From the NCBI RefSeq assembly GCF_002205675.1, contig NZ_NISK01000004.1, positions 1-64,000 on the forward strand: a stretch of DNA of 64,000 bases, written 5' to 3'. The notes beneath the pieces were generated by a model. The model was not told where the DNA came from. It searched no databases and saw only the letters and a program-made list of their open reading frames with translations. Position 1 is the stretch's first letter. Each line of letters begins with the position of its first letter. Of the stretch, positions 34,985 to 51,735 are shown in pieces. A program made the translations under genes and the position numbers. The stretch is from Sphingopyxis bauzanensis (lineage in GTDB: Bacteria > Pseudomonadota > Alphaproteobacteria > Sphingomonadales > Sphingomonadaceae).

Positions 34985-35099
34985 AACTGGCAGATTCAAG
35001 CCGCTTTTCCTCGCGTCGCCAACGGCAAGAATTTGTTCATGATTAACGCGATGATAACGATCTGGGACTAGGCACAACCGGCAATTGCTGGAGACGTGG

Positions 35100-37391
35100 G
35101 TGCCCATTCCGGTCAAAAATCTGATCATCAGCTGGCGCACGCTCGCGCTGTCGCTGCTACTAAGCGTAGCAGCGGGACTTTCGTCGATCGCCGAACCTGC
35201 CGATCGCATCATCGAAGCGGCGATCGGGCGCCTCGCGTGGCGGGCGGTTTCGGGCGATATCGTCGTGGTTGCGCTCGACGAAAAGACGCTCGCCAAATAT
35301 GGCAAAAACGACTTTTCGATGCGGCGGCACGCCGATGTTGTCGATGCAATAAAAAACGCTGGTGCTAAGCGCCTGTTTATCGACTTCACTTACGAACGAC
35401 GCCAGAATGATCCGGACTTGGCGCTGCTGGCCAATGCCGTGAAGCGGTGGCAAAATCGGGTCGTGCTGGCTGCCTCGGCAAAAAATGCCCAGGGAGGCAA
35501 AGCCGAACTTACCAACCTACCGGGCCCCGCTTTCGGGACTCAAGCGTTGATTGCGTGCATCGGATGGCAGTATGAATTCTGGCAGGTGTGGCGCATTCCA
35601 ATTACGTTGGAAGTCGACGGAAAACCGGTGCCTAGCTTTTCCTCGCTTCTGGCCCACCGGTCCTCCGACAAGGGCGGAGTTTATGCTCTCGACTATTCGT
35701 ACAGGACCGACACGATCCCATATGTCAGTGCTGCGGACGTTCTGTCTGGTGATGCTGGCCGCCGCGAACTTGAAGGCAAAGACGTGGTCTTCGCACCGAC
35801 GGCAGCCACTTTTCAAGACAATCATTATCTTCCGGGCAGTGATCGTGTACCAGGAGCCTACATCCATGTGGTTGGCGCCGAGACGCTGAAACGTGGCATG
35901 CCCATCGACATTGGATGGCTGCCGGGCCTGCTTTTCGCAGTAATTGCGCTGCTCGTTGGCATGGCTTTCCGGCGGGCGCGTTGGTTCAACGCTGCTGCAC
36001 TGGCAACCGTCGGAATCATGATAATAGGCAAGATCCTCCTGACGACCATTTTGGTCAGCAGTTCGATCGGGGCCGGCCTGTTTCTGGTGGCGACAATAGG
36101 TGCGAACGTATCGCGCACGAATCGTCATCGTTCAGCCCAGCGCGAAAACCCGGTATCGGGTCTCCCCAATTTCGAAGCGCTGCGATCGCAGGCGCCGTTT
36201 GGCAGCACGACGGTCGTCGCCGCTAAGGTCGTCAATTTCGAGGATCTCGCTGCTTTCATCCCAGGTGACGGGATTGGCAAACTGATCGAGCAGGTCACGC
36301 GCCGCCTGTTGCTCGCGTCACAAGGTACGGCGCTTCATCACGACCTAGATGGCACTTTTGCCTGGCTGGTTCCTTATTATCAGCACAGCCAGATCGAGGG
36401 ACAGCTTGCCGGGCTTGCCGCGCTGTTCAACGCGCCGCTGACGATTGGCGAATTGCGGGTCGATGTCGCGATCGCTTTCGGGGTCAACGACGAGTTTGAA
36501 GGCTCGAACGCCCAGCGTCTGGCTGCCGCGCTCGTCGCCGCCGAACGAGCGATCCGCACCCGCGCGCTGTGGACCAAATATGTGCCGCGCCAAAAGGACG
36601 ACGCCGGTTGGCAGCTCTCTTTCCACTCGCAGCTTGAGGACGCGCTTACCGGCGGCGATATCTGGGTCGCGTTCCAGCCGCAATATGCGCTTTCGACGGG
36701 CCGGCTGGTCGGGGTCGAGGCGCTGGCGCGCTGGACGCATCCGACGCGCGGTCCGATCCCGCCCGACGAGTTCATCGTCCAGGCCGAAAAGAGCCAGGAC
36801 ATCTATCGCCTGACTTTGTTCGTGATGGACCAGGCGATCCGGTCGGCGGCGCAGTTGCACGAGCGCGGCCACCGCATCAACATGTCGGTCAATCTGTCCG
36901 CGACGCTGCTTGATCATAGCGACCTGGTCGGCACGATCCGCGTGATGCTCTCGGCGCATCATTTGCCGCCGGAGATCCTGACAATCGAGATCACCGAAAC
37001 CGCCCAGATCGAAAACAGCCGCCAGGCGCGCCTGACGCTCGCCCAGCTCCGCCGCACCGGCATCCGCCTGTCGATCGACGATTATGGCACCGGCCAGTCA
37101 AACCTTGAATATCTGACAGAAATCGAGGCCGACGAAATCAAGATCGACAAGCGATTCGTGATGACCATGCGCGATTCGCAGCGGAACCGCGAAGTGGTGA
37201 AATCGACCATCGACCTAGCCCATCGCCTGGGCGCGGTTGCGGTCGCCGAAGGCATTGAAGATGCCGAAACCATGGCCCTTTTGGGCCAGCTCGGTTGCGA
37301 CGTTGGCCAAGGCTATCATCTTGGCAAACCACAATTATTTTCCGAACTCGCTGCGACCCTCTCCGCCCCATCGCAAAACCGAACCGCATAA
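35100..37391 (+). CDS. CHASE2 - degenerate GGDEF - EAL cyclic-di-GMP phosphodiesterase
   Basis: The membrane protein has an N-terminal helix, a periplasmic CHASE2 sensor (DIVVVALDEKTLAKYG, RLFIDFTY), two or three helices near residues 280-340, then a GGDEF-like region and a C-terminal EAL domain. The GGDEF signature is absent (HHDLDGTFAWL in its place), so no cyclase activity is expected. The EAL domain looks active: VEALARW, NLSATLL, EITETAQ, IDDYGTG, KIDKRF and AEGIED hold the metal and catalytic residues. It should degrade c-di-GMP in response to a periplasmic signal. A GTG at 35100 with GGAG nearby is preferred; a TTG at 35085 is possible. Confidence 0.87.
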   Translation: MPIPVKNLIISWRTLALSLLLSVAAGLSSIAEPADRIIEAAIGRLAWRAVSGDIVVVALDEKTLAKYGKNDFSMRRHADVVDAIKNAGAKRLFIDFTYERRQNDPDLALLANAVKRWQNRVVLAASAKNAQGGKAELTNLPGPAFGTQALIACIGWQYEFWQVWRIPITLEVDGKPVPSFSSLLAHRSSDKGGVYALDYSYRTDTIPYVSAADVLSGDAGRRELEGKDVVFAPTAATFQDNHYLPGSDRVPGAYIHVVGAETLKRGMPIDIGWLPGLLFAVIALLVGMAFRRARWFNAAALATVGIMIIGKILLTTILVSSSIGAGLFLVATIGANVSRTNRHRSAQRENPVSGLPNFEALRSQAPFGSTTVVAAKVVNFEDLAAFIPGDGIGKLIEQVTRRLLLASQGTALHHDLDGTFAWLVPYYQHSQIEGQLAGLAALFNAPLTIGELRVDVAIAFGVNDEFEGSNAQRLAAALVAAERAIRTRALWTKYVPRQKDDAGWQLSFHSQLEDALTGGDIWVAFQPQYALSTGRLVGVEALARWTHPTRGPIPPDEFIVQAEKSQDIYRLTLFVMDQAIRSAAQLHERGHRINMSVNLSATLLDHSDLVGTIRVMLSAHHLPPEILTIEITETAQIENSRQARLTLAQLRRTGIRLSIDDYGTGQSNLEYLTEIEADEIKIDKRFVMTMRDSQRNREVVKSTIDLAHRLGAVAVAEGIEDAETMALLGQLGCDVGQGYHLGKPQLFSELAATLSAPSQNRTA

Positions 37392-37447
37392 CTGCCAGAT
37401 TGGCGGCAATTATATGGTTAAGACTCGATTTACCTTACAAAAGATGG

Positions 37448-37462
37448 TAAACGCTCCGTTAA
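37448..37462. promoter_or_regulatory. CtrA-like box upstream of the mini-ORF
   Basis: TAAA-N7-TTAA at 37448-37462 matches the alphaproteobacterial CtrA consensus TTAA-N7-TTAA at seven of eight positions. A further half-site, TTAACCAT on the minus strand, lies shortly upstream near 37412-37419. The box ends 36 nt before the start codon of a 20-codon ORF. The CtrA inhibitor SciP is encoded in this window, so the regulator should exist in the organism. Binding is predicted only. Confidence 0.45.
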
Positions 37463-37498
37463 CTGTTCTTCGTGGGCAGTGCCGACAGGAGATTTCAC

Positions 37499-37561
37499 AT
37501 GGGTTGGTTTTGGAAATTTCTGGGTGGCGGCGGCACCGGTAACGGTGGTGCATCGGCCTAA
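37499..37561 (+). CDS. 20-residue mini-ORF with ribosome site and terminator
   Basis: The ATG at 37499 follows ACAGGAGATTTCAC, a strong ribosome site at good spacing, and opens 20 codons ending in TAA at 37559-37561. The peptide has a Trp/Phe-rich start (MGWFWKFLGGG) and a Gly-rich end. A very good intrinsic terminator follows 22 nt later. The three signals together suggest an independent short transcript making a membrane-active or regulatory peptide, or a small RNA containing it. No family is recognised. Confidence 0.5.
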   Translation: MGWFWKFLGGGGTGNGGASA

Positions 37562-37583
37562 CCTGGATGTAAATTCAGAGAGA

Positions 37584-37615
37584 GGGCTCCGGCATTGCCG
37601 GGGCCCTTTCTTTTT
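37584..37615 (+). terminator. Intrinsic terminator after the mini-ORF
   Basis: GGGCTCCGGC at 37584-37593 pairs with GCCGGGGCCC at 37597-37606 (one G-U pair) around the loop ATT, and is followed by TTTCTTTTT. This is the clearest intrinsic terminator in this part of the window. Confidence 0.85.
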
Positions 37616-38092
37616 GTCCGCGGCCCGCGCGACCGCTTGATGCTCGCTGCGGCAGTGGGACCATCGGCCCAAGGCGCCACTACAGCCGTCTGGCTTCCGA
37701 GAAAAAATTCCGTTCACATCGCTGTTGCACAGAGATCCGGGCAATCCCTCGGAAACGCGGGCGCGACCCCGCCTGATCGCGCCTTGCACGCGACGAGACG
37801 AATCAAAATATCGACGAACCGAGTCCCTAAACCGTCATTTACTGTCTTGCATCGTCGCGCCGACGTGGCACTATAGATGGTGGGTCGGCCGAGGGGGCAC
37901 CCCAAGAATTAGTGCTTGGCCAAAATTGGCAGATTTCCGTCGCCCATATCACATGGGCTCGGAAAACTGCTTCGTGCGGCCAAAAATATGTGCCCCCACG
38001 GATCGAATAGATGCTAGGCTGGGGCTTCGTCCCGAGTCGAACAAGACAGGAACATATGCGCTGCGGCGCATGGGCAATCGGGGACGAACAAG
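37616..38092. other. Long leader region before nrdA, about 480 bp
   Basis: No supported ORF lies here. Such space before a ribonucleotide reductase operon usually holds the promoter and NrdR boxes. I looked for the NrdR consensus (ACAC-ATATATAG-GTGT type) and did not find a convincing pair. A short palindromic stretch TTGGCCAAAATTGGC occurs near 37918. A cobalamin riboswitch was not recognised. Confidence 0.35.
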
Positions 38093-40033
38093 ATGGATTT
38101 TCGCGAGACAGAACGGGTGGAGACGAGCGACGTGGCGACGGTGGAATTGACGAAGAACGAAGTGCCAGTAGCGAACGAATCGGCCCCCGAAGCGGCCCCG
38201 ACCGCTAAGCTTAACGACAGCAGCGAGGCGAAGGTCCACGCGCGCCGATTCGATATCATCACCGACAAGAGCCGCGACGCGCTGCTCACCGACTTCGGCA
38301 AGGAAACGCTCGAGGATCGCTACCTGCTTCCTGGCGAATCCTATCAGGATCTCTTCGCCCGCGTCGCGTCGGCCTATGCCGATGACCAGGAGCATGCGCA
38401 GCGCCTCTATGATTATATCAGCCGCCTGTGGTTCATGCCCGCGACCCCCGTGCTGTCGAACGGCGGCACCGGCCGCGGCCTGCCGATCAGCTGTTACCTC
38501 AACTCGGTCCCCGACAGCCTCGAAGGCATCGTCGAGACGTGGAACGAGAATGTCTGGCTCGCATCACGCGGCGGCGGCATCGGCACCTATTGGGGCAGCG
38601 TGCGCGGCATTGGCGAGCCCGTTGGCCTCAACGGCAAGACCAGCGGCATCATCCCCTTCGTCCGCGTCATGGACTCGCTCACGCTCGCGATCAGCCAGGG
38701 CAGCCTGCGCCGCGGTTCGGCCGCCTGCTATCTCGACATCTCGCACCCCGAGATCGAGGAGTTCCTCGAAATCCGCAAACCGTCGGGCGACTTCAACCGC
38801 AAGGCGCTCAACCTGCACCACGGCGTGCTGATCACTGACGAGTTCATGGAAGCGGTGCGCGACGGCACCGAATTCGACCTGCGTAGCCCCAAGGACCAGA
38901 GCGTCCGCGGCAGCGTCGATGCGCGCTCGCTGTTCCAGAAGCTCGTCGAAACCCGCCTCGCGACCGGCGAGCCCTACATCATCTTTATCGACCAGGTGAA
39001 CCGCATGATGCCCAAGCATCACCGCGATCTCGGCCTCAAGGTCACCACCTCGAACCTGTGCAGCGAAATCACCCTGCCCACCGGCCGCGACCATCTCGGT
39101 AACGATCGCACCGCGGTCTGCTGCCTCTCGTCGCTCAACCTCGAAACCTGGGACGAGTGGAACGGTGACAAGGGCTTTATCGAAGACGTGATGCGCATGC
39201 TCGACAACGTTTTGCAGGATTATATCGACCGCGCCCCGCCCGAAATGACGCGCGCCAAGTACAGCGCCAGCCGCGAACGCTCGGTCGGCCTCGGCGTCAT
39301 GGGCTTCCACAGCTTCCTCCAGGCGCGCGGCCTGCCGTTCGAGGGCGCGATGGCGAAATCGTCGAACCTGCGCGTCTTCAAGCATATCCGCGCCCAAGTC
39401 GATCAGGCGTCGATGCTCCTCGCCAAGGAACGCGGCCCCTGCCCCGACGCCGCCGATCAGGGGGTGATGGAGCGCTTCAGCTGCAAGATGGCGATCGCGC
39501 CGACCGCGTCGATCTCGATCATCTGCGGCGGCACCAGCGCCTGCATCGAGCCGATTCCGGCGAACATCTACACGCACAAGACGCTCTCGGGCAGCTTCTC
39601 GATCCGCAACCCGCACCTCGAGGCGCTGCTCGTCGACAAGGCGAAGAACAGCGACAATATCTGGAACTCGATCCTCGAACGCGGCGGCAGCGTCCAGCAC
39701 CTCGACTTCTTGACGCAGGACGAAAAGGACTGCTTCAAGACCAGCTTCGAGATCGACCAGCGCTGGCTGCTCGAACTGTCGGCCGACCGCACCCCGTACA
39801 TCGATCAGGCGCAGTCGCTGAACCTGTTCATTCCCGCCGACGTCGAGAAATGGGATCTGCTCATGCTTCATTACCGCGCGTGGGAACTCGGCATCAAATC
39901 GCTCTATTATCTGCGGTCCAAGTCGGTGCAGCGCGCCGGCTTCGCGGGCGGGGTCGAGGCCGACAACACCGCAAAAGCTCCGGTCTATGAATTGCAGACC
40001 ACCGACTACGACGAGTGTCTGGCCTGCCAATAA
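38093..40033 (+). CDS. nrdA: Class Ia ribonucleoside-diphosphate reductase, large subunit
   Basis: The 646-residue subunit reduces ribonucleotides to deoxyribonucleotides together with NrdB. Catalytic residues are visible: the first redox Cys in GLPISCYLNSV, the Asn-Cys-Glu triad in TSNLCSEITLP, the second redox Cys in VCCLSSLNL, the Tyr pair in LYYLRSKS, and the C-terminal CLACQ that exchanges electrons with thioredoxin. The protein is short and lacks the N-terminal ATP-cone, so dATP shut-off through that domain is not possible here. nrdB follows after a 124-bp repeat-containing gap. Confidence 0.94.
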   Translation: MDFRETERVETSDVATVELTKNEVPVANESAPEAAPTAKLNDSSEAKVHARRFDIITDKSRDALLTDFGKETLEDRYLLPGESYQDLFARVASAYADDQEHAQRLYDYISRLWFMPATPVLSNGGTGRGLPISCYLNSVPDSLEGIVETWNENVWLASRGGGIGTYWGSVRGIGEPVGLNGKTSGIIPFVRVMDSLTLAISQGSLRRGSAACYLDISHPEIEEFLEIRKPSGDFNRKALNLHHGVLITDEFMEAVRDGTEFDLRSPKDQSVRGSVDARSLFQKLVETRLATGEPYIIFIDQVNRMMPKHHRDLGLKVTTSNLCSEITLPTGRDHLGNDRTAVCCLSSLNLETWDEWNGDKGFIEDVMRMLDNVLQDYIDRAPPEMTRAKYSASRERSVGLGVMGFHSFLQARGLPFEGAMAKSSNLRVFKHIRAQVDQASMLLAKERGPCPDAADQGVMERFSCKMAIAPTASISIICGGTSACIEPIPANIYTHKTLSGSFSIRNPHLEALLVDKAKNSDNIWNSILERGGSVQHLDFLTQDEKDCFKTSFEIDQRWLLELSADRTPYIDQAQSLNLFIPADVEKWDLLMLHYRAWELGIKSLYYLRSKSVQRAGFAGGVEADNTAKAPVYELQTTDYDECLACQ

Positions 40034-51462: not shown

Positions 51463-51735
51463 ATGCGTAAGATGTTCATTACCCTCGCCGCCACTTCGGC
51501 CCTCGCGCTCGGCGCTTGCCAGAGCCCCGCCGCCGACAAGGTCGAAGATCAGGCCGAAGCTCAGGCTGACGCGATCGACGAGCAGGCCGACGCCATGCCC
51601 GAAGGTCCGGCCAAGGAAGCCATGGAAAACAAGGCTGACGTCGTCGAAGAAATGGGCGAAGAGAAGGCTAACGCCATGGACGATAATGGCGAGATCGCTC
51701 CGTCGGAAACCGGCGTCGGCGACACGCAAAAATAA
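51463..51735 (+). CDS. Small acidic lipoprotein
   Basis: The 90-residue product has a lipoprotein signal (lipobox LGAC, Cys19), after which it is very rich in Glu, Asp and Ala (VEDQAEAQADAIDEQADAMP). It is probably helical and anchored in the envelope. No function is known. The ATG at 51463 is the start that gives a proper signal; the longer frame runs into the sciP terminator. Confidence 0.75.
   Translation: MRKMFITLAATSALALGACQSPAADKVEDQAEAQADAIDEQADAMPEGPAKEAMENKADVVEEMGEEKANAMDDNGEIAPSETGVGDTQK

Follow-up and report, generated by a model that had tools for sequence, protein, structure and literature searches.

KdpF, CydX, MgtS and SpoVM are small regulatory membrane proteins that act on a membrane partner, and the leader peptides of Trp operons are encoded by short open reading frames (ORFs) with closely spaced tryptophan codons and a terminator. 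Genes of this length fall under the usual annotation length limits; therefore, such genes can stay unseen even when they form a family conserved throughout a large bacterial family. In sphingomonads, CtrA is said to control motility and biofilm formation, a result attributed to Francez-Charlot and dated 2015. In Sphingomonas melonis, growth is reported to be unharmed by the loss of CtrA (PMC8116508). The CtrA consensus, TTAA-N7-TTAA, is located at -35 in most CtrA-induced promoters (PMC11264516), and Sphingopyxis granuli expresses both ctrA and ccrM (PMC6472365).

The window, that is, the whole 64-kb stretch of Sphingopyxis DNA that was analysed, contains a micro-gene that resembles KdpF, CydX, MgtS and SpoVM in being a tiny single gene with an aromatic and hydrophobic product and an association with a membrane protein, but differs from them in that many family members are far shorter (10–14 amino acids), are linked to a predicted c-di-GMP phosphodiesterase and have no Pfam or NCBIfam model. 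With the Trp-operon leaders it shares the short ORF, the close tryptophan codons and the terminator but, unlike them, it lacks a conserved downstream gene. The candidate box upstream of the ORF is similar to those of CtrA-activated promoters (PMC11264516) in sequence, in spacing and in its probable place near -35, but in Sphingopyxis it departs from the consensus by one mismatch and carries a GANTC site in the spacer. Our main reading, to which we assign a probability of about 0.6, is that the locus represents an independently transcribed, Trp-rich micro-gene of the Sphingomonadaceae (in the wide sense, a family assignment based on named relatives), paired with a single orthologue group of CHASE2-EAL enzymes. 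The features are as follows.

35085..37391, + strand: CHASE2-EAL partner gene (Pfam CHASE2, 3e-18; EAL, 2e-65)
37416..37434, + strand: candidate CtrA-type box GGTTAA-GACTCGA-TTTACC (GGTTAAGACTCGATTTACC; alignment, spacing and matrix tests)
37443..37465, + strand: second conserved promoter block, GATGGTAAACGCTCCGTTAACTG in the window (genus alignment; putative role)
37487..37492, + strand: ribosome binding site AGGAGA (sequence and genus alignment)
37499..37561, + strand: micro-ORF of 20 amino acids, MGWFWKFLGGGGTGNGGASA, with ATG at 37499 and TAA at 37559-37561 (sequence and conservation)
37579..37615, + strand: intrinsic terminator, a 15-pair GC-rich hairpin followed by a T-run (ViennaRNA and our own scan)
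from 38093, + strand: nrdA, about 480 nt 3′ of the terminator

The AGGAG site, the 20-codon ORF and the terminator of the original prediction are all present, and the compact complete gene that it proposed is borne out by a conserved reading frame for which there is no Pfam or NCBIfam model. The terminator hairpin has a predicted free energy of -28.6 kcal/mol by ViennaRNA, in agreement with our own scan, although a simple scanner reported 0 terminators in 37300-38100; the same scanner returned 0 matches to a sigma-70-type promoter in this interval.

When 60 genomes were searched at the DNA level, the micro-ORF was matched in 33 of the 35 other Sphingopyxis genomes, and its length is 20 codons in every one of the 35 loci that were read (own genome included; one genome contributes two loci; 33 were located by script, L013 separately and L034 by eye). 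The usual peptide conforms to MGWF[WY]x[FW][LMV]GG.G, with a glycine-rich tail and a final A, and that of L034 is MAWIWKWVGGGGTGGGGLPA. The ORFs contain two or three tryptophan codons each, tyrosine replacing one tryptophan in some members. The pN/pS ratio is 0.41 in frame vs 1.39 and 1.08 for the two alternative frames (35 distinct sequences; L034 stands outside this count and those of the box-spacing and matrix tests). The micro-ORF evolves as a protein, under frame-specific purifying selection; conservation of the frame among relatives, the check that had been proposed at the outset, thus holds, and by these comparisons the product is almost certainly a translated, conserved peptide. Codon 2 is GGT in 34 of the 35 sequences; hence there may be an extra RNA or initiation constraint at this position. 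One of the genomes, G031 (73% complete), has the micro-gene on two contigs, in copies that differ from each other (L013 and L031), and is perhaps a mixed assembly.

A profile of the 20-residue genus peptides, searched against 149 genomes of the family, detected above noise only the own genome and two genomes of the same genus. The notion of a genus-only family was nevertheless rejected: a weak match, L041 (16.2 bits), lies behind the same EAL gene and is followed by a terminator, and it was this synteny that revealed the wider family. Outside the genus, the slot downstream of the CHASE2-EAL gene contains an ORF of 10–38 amino acids with a Shine-Dalgarno (SD) sequence and usually a terminator, and most members share the core [F/I]WxW[L/I/V][F/L/M]G. 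Such a micro-ORF was present at 24 of 28 loci read behind CHASE2-EAL genes of the family and at five of the seven loci that were read out of a set of 80 from named organisms (the exceptions being L280 and L282). A second profile, A2, built from the micro-ORFs beyond the genus, was searched against 249 genomes of the family and, at E values up to 1, matched 105, many of them by chance. Among 60 A2 matches that were inspected, 53 combine an upstream EAL gene with the micro-ORF and one (L124) has the micro-ORF alone; the remaining six, with neither an EAL gene nor a terminator, were taken as chance matches. Of 30 loci that belong either to families other than this one or to three members of the genus, 20 were read and showed no clear micro-ORF; at L246 a candidate ORF lies inside the apparent next coding region.

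The ten-residue members include MWNFWRWMFG, MFNFWRWMFG, MWDMWKWLLG, MFDFWNWLFR and the divergent MWYILFRRFL, and the longest member has 38 residues; MYSWLWGGLGR, MKKWPWAGWNW and MTGFFKEFWDSLRGSSGR depart widely from the core. In L278 (Novosphingobium fuchskuhlense), MWYILFRRFL occupies the slot with box, SD and a terminator-like hairpin present and the W-x-W core absent. Beyond the genus, the core is kept with differing codons: in 82 micro-ORFs, phenylalanine is encoded by TTC and TTT 39 and 19 times, respectively, aspartate by GAC and GAT 26 and 13 times, and leucine by four codons. All 145 ORFs of the curated set, which excludes L137 and L139, start with ATG, in part through selection because the set was curated, and the SD is seen at the aligned and read loci. 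A terminator-like element occurs at most 120 nt from the micro-ORF in 140 of 144 cases, compared with 78 of 300 random stretches of the window at the same loose threshold.

The census of the order rests on a CHASE2-EAL profile that, at E values up to 1e-140, matched 103 of 246 genomes at 117 places, all in one family; the other 143 genomes had no match at this threshold. The micro-ORF is found beside 90 of the 117 places and is absent from 27. The 90 micro-ORFs are distributed one each over 90 of the 103 genomes, so that 13 have none beside a CHASE2-EAL gene, and where a genome has two CHASE2-EAL places, as 14 genomes do, exactly one is accompanied by a micro-ORF. For a subset of 80 places, an automatic core pattern identified 43 micro-ORFs and inspection by eye 12 more (55 in total, with 25 places lacking one); the calls by eye relied on the presence of an SD, the location of the ORF, its content of aromatic residues and, in most cases, a terminator, and L278 and L360 are among the few such calls made elsewhere. 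The locus L172 extends past the end of its retrieved sequence. All 39 places that score at least 850 bits have the micro-ORF, although one of these ORFs is truncated where its sequence stops. Among 289 genomes of the class, full-length matches to the enzyme at E values up to 1e-110 come only from Sphingomonadaceae in the wide sense, and the single match outside this family covers the EAL half only.

In an unrooted tree of 68 EAL regions, the 48 enzymes with a micro-ORF (L368, L370 and L381 by eye) and the 20 without are separated by a single branch, implying one change; this branch has support of 99/97 and is present in 98% of 200 bootstrap trees. The tree is a sample, because its rows were limited to those with enough EAL sequence, and it includes two short rows and two long branches. 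Six of the 13 genomes without a micro-ORF are represented, and their enzymes all fall on the side that lacks it, a pattern suggestive of a joint loss of the other enzyme and the micro-ORF. Three genomes of the genus itself, G015, G017 and G365, have no full-length enzyme (best E values of about 1e-82 to 1e-84, for the EAL half only), and the two of them covered by the DNA search for the micro-ORF, G015 and G017, are the two genomes that also lack it. In G214, the box, micro-ORF and terminator remain beside the downstream neighbour common to relatives, with no adjacent EAL gene, and the enzyme is on another contig without a micro-ORF. The micro-gene accordingly is a unit of its own that is nonetheless kept with this enzyme group, and the linkage is no proof of contact because the two genes stand apart in G214. 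Within the compared part of the EAL half, only two positions, R478 and W509, passed the cut-off for marking the micro-ORF group; W509 is present in 45 of the 47 filled rows of this group vs three rows of the other.

The partner protein comprises 768 amino acids as called from TTG, a putative start codon. Its CHASE2 domain belongs to a type that is typically extracytoplasmic and located between membrane helices, and the region between the two domains resembles a degenerate GGDEF domain, a call made by eye, Pfam giving no GGDEF match in this protein. Residues E545, N603, E635, D665, D666, K686, E722 and Q742, which we take to be the catalytic residues of the EAL domain, are invariant in all 15 aligned proteins; with these residues conserved, the partner is a predicted c-di-GMP phosphodiesterase.

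The original prediction placed a CtrA-like box at 37448-37462. The motif TAAA-N7-TTAA does occur there, and its two occurrences in the 64-kb window, against 0.07 expected, are both at this locus. Nonetheless, the TAAA half is found in only 3 of 33 aligned genus rows (the window, L002 and L021), most others having TATA, so that this copy was rejected as the conserved box for its poor conservation, unlike the copy at 37416-37434. A CtrA-type box is thus supported by the sequence, but the wrong copy had been singled out. The conserved copy has, in the window, one mismatch (TTTA) to TTAA-N7-TTAA. The block at 37443-37465, which contains the copy at 37448-37462 and reads AAGGTATATGCTCCGTTAACTG in many genus members, perhaps represents the -10 region and start or a further half-site.

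Outside the genus, TTAA-N7-TTAA ranks first among 12 spacings (N3 to N14), with perfect matches in 14 of 95 non-redundant upstream regions vs 0.45 in shuffles and matches with at most one mismatch in 56 vs 8.7. Spacings N3, N4, N6, N9, N12 and N13 are likewise enriched, owing to the tandem arrangement of several TTAA-like elements. L081 has a perfect pair at N9 and an N7 box with one mismatch. Within the genus, where at most one mismatch is seen in 18 of 19 regions at N7, 19 at N8 and 16 at N9, and N13 is perfect in 15, these other spacings rival N7 because the rows share one sequence. A trained matrix has the consensus GGTTAA-N7-TTAACC and separates the regions from shuffles partly by construction, since it was trained on the same sequences. 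Without training, TTAA-N7-TTAA with at most one mismatch is found in 74 of 114 upstream regions vs 1 of 24 EAL controls that lack a micro-ORF (24 of 25 such places, L195 being left out; AT content of 0.43 vs 0.52 for the micro-ORF regions). The promoter pattern of the genus, applied family-wide, matched 2 of 199, both in the genus, and missed the window, which reads GGTAAA. The spacer of the window box holds GACTC, a GANTC (CcrM-type) site; GANTC is present in all 19 genus regions (5.8 expected; GACTC is common to the aligned rows) but in 40 of 95 regions outside the genus, barely above the 32 expected. A GcrA gene is present in this genome. From the TTAA-N7-TTAA patterns, control of the micro-gene by CtrA is likely, and direct binding of CtrA to the box is quite probable.

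The aromatic residues W, F and Y make up on average 23% of the 132 distinct peptides vs 6% of the proteins of the window, and 123 of the 132 are neutral or positively charged. On an interface free-energy scale, the median of the best 9-residue segment is -5.6 kcal/mol for these peptides vs 0.2 for 1106 ordinary 20-mers. Such a composition fits membrane binding, and we lean towards a membrane location, although with somewhat less confidence than we attach to the binding of CtrA; peptides of 10–14 residues are too short for a membrane-spanning helix, and the core would most likely reside in the membrane interface. The flanks of the core vary and its middle residue is D, E, K, R, S, G, N or T; therefore, no fixed charged contact is evident. 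The simplest reading is that the product might be a small accessory peptide of the membrane phosphodiesterase. Under such a scheme, phosphorylated CtrA would bind the box near the -35 region, a transcript of about 120–150 nt would start there and end at the hairpin, and the AGGAG site would drive translation of a peptide of 10–38 residues (20 here), the aromatic core of which would insert in the interface of the inner membrane, where the peptide could contact the membrane-bound phosphodiesterase and tune c-di-GMP breakdown when CtrA is active. That the peptide acts directly on the enzyme is a tentative proposal at somewhat less than even odds. The full version, in which a c-di-GMP phosphodiesterase would have a peptide regulator dedicated to it, down to 10 residues in some lineages and under a CtrA cell-cycle promoter, is more doubtful still. 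If true, few conserved regulatory proteins made by ribosomes would be smaller than these peptides, and the breakdown of a second messenger at the membrane would be coupled to the cell cycle.

The main rival to this scheme, which we consider unlikely though deserving serious attention, is an independent micro-protein with a role in the cell cycle, motility or the envelope, its adjacency to the enzyme reflecting inherited chance or shared regulation. The box and terminator that the micro-gene has to itself and the separation of the two genes in G214 speak for such independence; in the sampled tree, however, its presence coincides with one group of enzymes, and in G015 and G017 it is absent jointly with the full-length enzyme, both of which weigh against this reading. 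Rather less probable is a dual-function or regulatory small RNA, in which a short transcript would base-pair and the ORF would be secondary. The size, promoter and terminator are typical of a small RNA gene, the segment 37470-37616 folds better than shuffles (z of -5.5, in good part via the terminator), and the first codons of the genus ORFs, ATG GGT TGG, are near-invariant even at a synonymous site (GGT in 34 of 35). Between genera, by contrast, the peptide core, the start codon and the SD persist despite divergence of the DNA, and no Rfam family reaches its gathering score in the window. Four below-threshold matches cover 37549-37621, over the hairpin: ctRNA_p42d (21.6 of 50 bits), suhB (the SuhB/MmgR small RNA, RF00519, over the ORF end and terminator, 18.6 bits vs a gathering score of 41), BjrC68 (16.2 of 39 bits) and BSnc120 (15.6 of 114). 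The retention of the peptide core from genus to genus under changing codons, together with the lack of an Rfam family at gathering score, makes a noncoding RNA unlikely.

A type I toxin or other membrane-damaging peptide would fit a product that is short, aromatic and hydrophobic, but the gene occurs once beside one fixed enzyme and is inherited with the enzyme group, the members of 10–14 residues are, as noted above, too short for a membrane-spanning helix, and a known RNA family at gathering score is absent from the window; we regard this explanation as very improbable. The poorest prospect is that of a leader-peptide attenuator, in which the tryptophan codons and terminator would respond to the level of charged tRNA and so regulate the gene that follows, here nrdA. 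The two or three tryptophan codons of the genus ORFs and a terminator that begins about 20 nt past the stop codon have the appropriate arrangement, but nrdA starts some 480 nt past that terminator, tyrosine takes the place of one tryptophan in some genus members, and nrdA-, rpoB- and rpoA-like genes (named by eye) are among the downstream neighbours, which may lie on either strand. Comparison of 23 loci revealed downstream similarity in two pairs only, and it is this lack of conservation of the downstream gene that makes attenuation unlikely. The partnership of an independently transcribed micro-gene with one CHASE2-EAL group thus remains our preferred reading.

The micro-proteins appear to constitute an undescribed family. 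Pfam (two peptides) and NCBIfam (three peptides) gave 0 matches at E values up to 1, a result to be read with the fact that peptides so short score poorly on any model; a PDB sequence search gave nothing meaningful (four matches, best E value of 2.8), and no published description of the micro-gene was found in the literature searched, which covers few subscription journals. Compared with the original prediction, the family-wide spread, the one-to-one link with the CHASE2-EAL enzyme and the members down to 10 amino acids are new. The pairing with one phosphodiesterase group provides a hypothesis that would tie c-di-GMP turnover to CtrA in sphingomonads, and the natural range of 10 to 38 residues, in 132 distinct sequences, makes the minimal working peptide directly testable.

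Nine ORFs of 8–45 amino acids with SD and ATG are present in the 64-kb window, six on the + strand and three on the - strand, and the micro-ORF at 37499-37561 is the sole bearer of the aromatic core among them. Two of the nine, this micro-ORF included, have a terminator on their 3′ side; the other one, at 51622-51735 on the + strand, encodes a strongly acidic product of 37 amino acids, MENKADVVEEMGEEKANAMDDNGEIAPSETGVGDTQK, and likewise combines an SD with a terminator.
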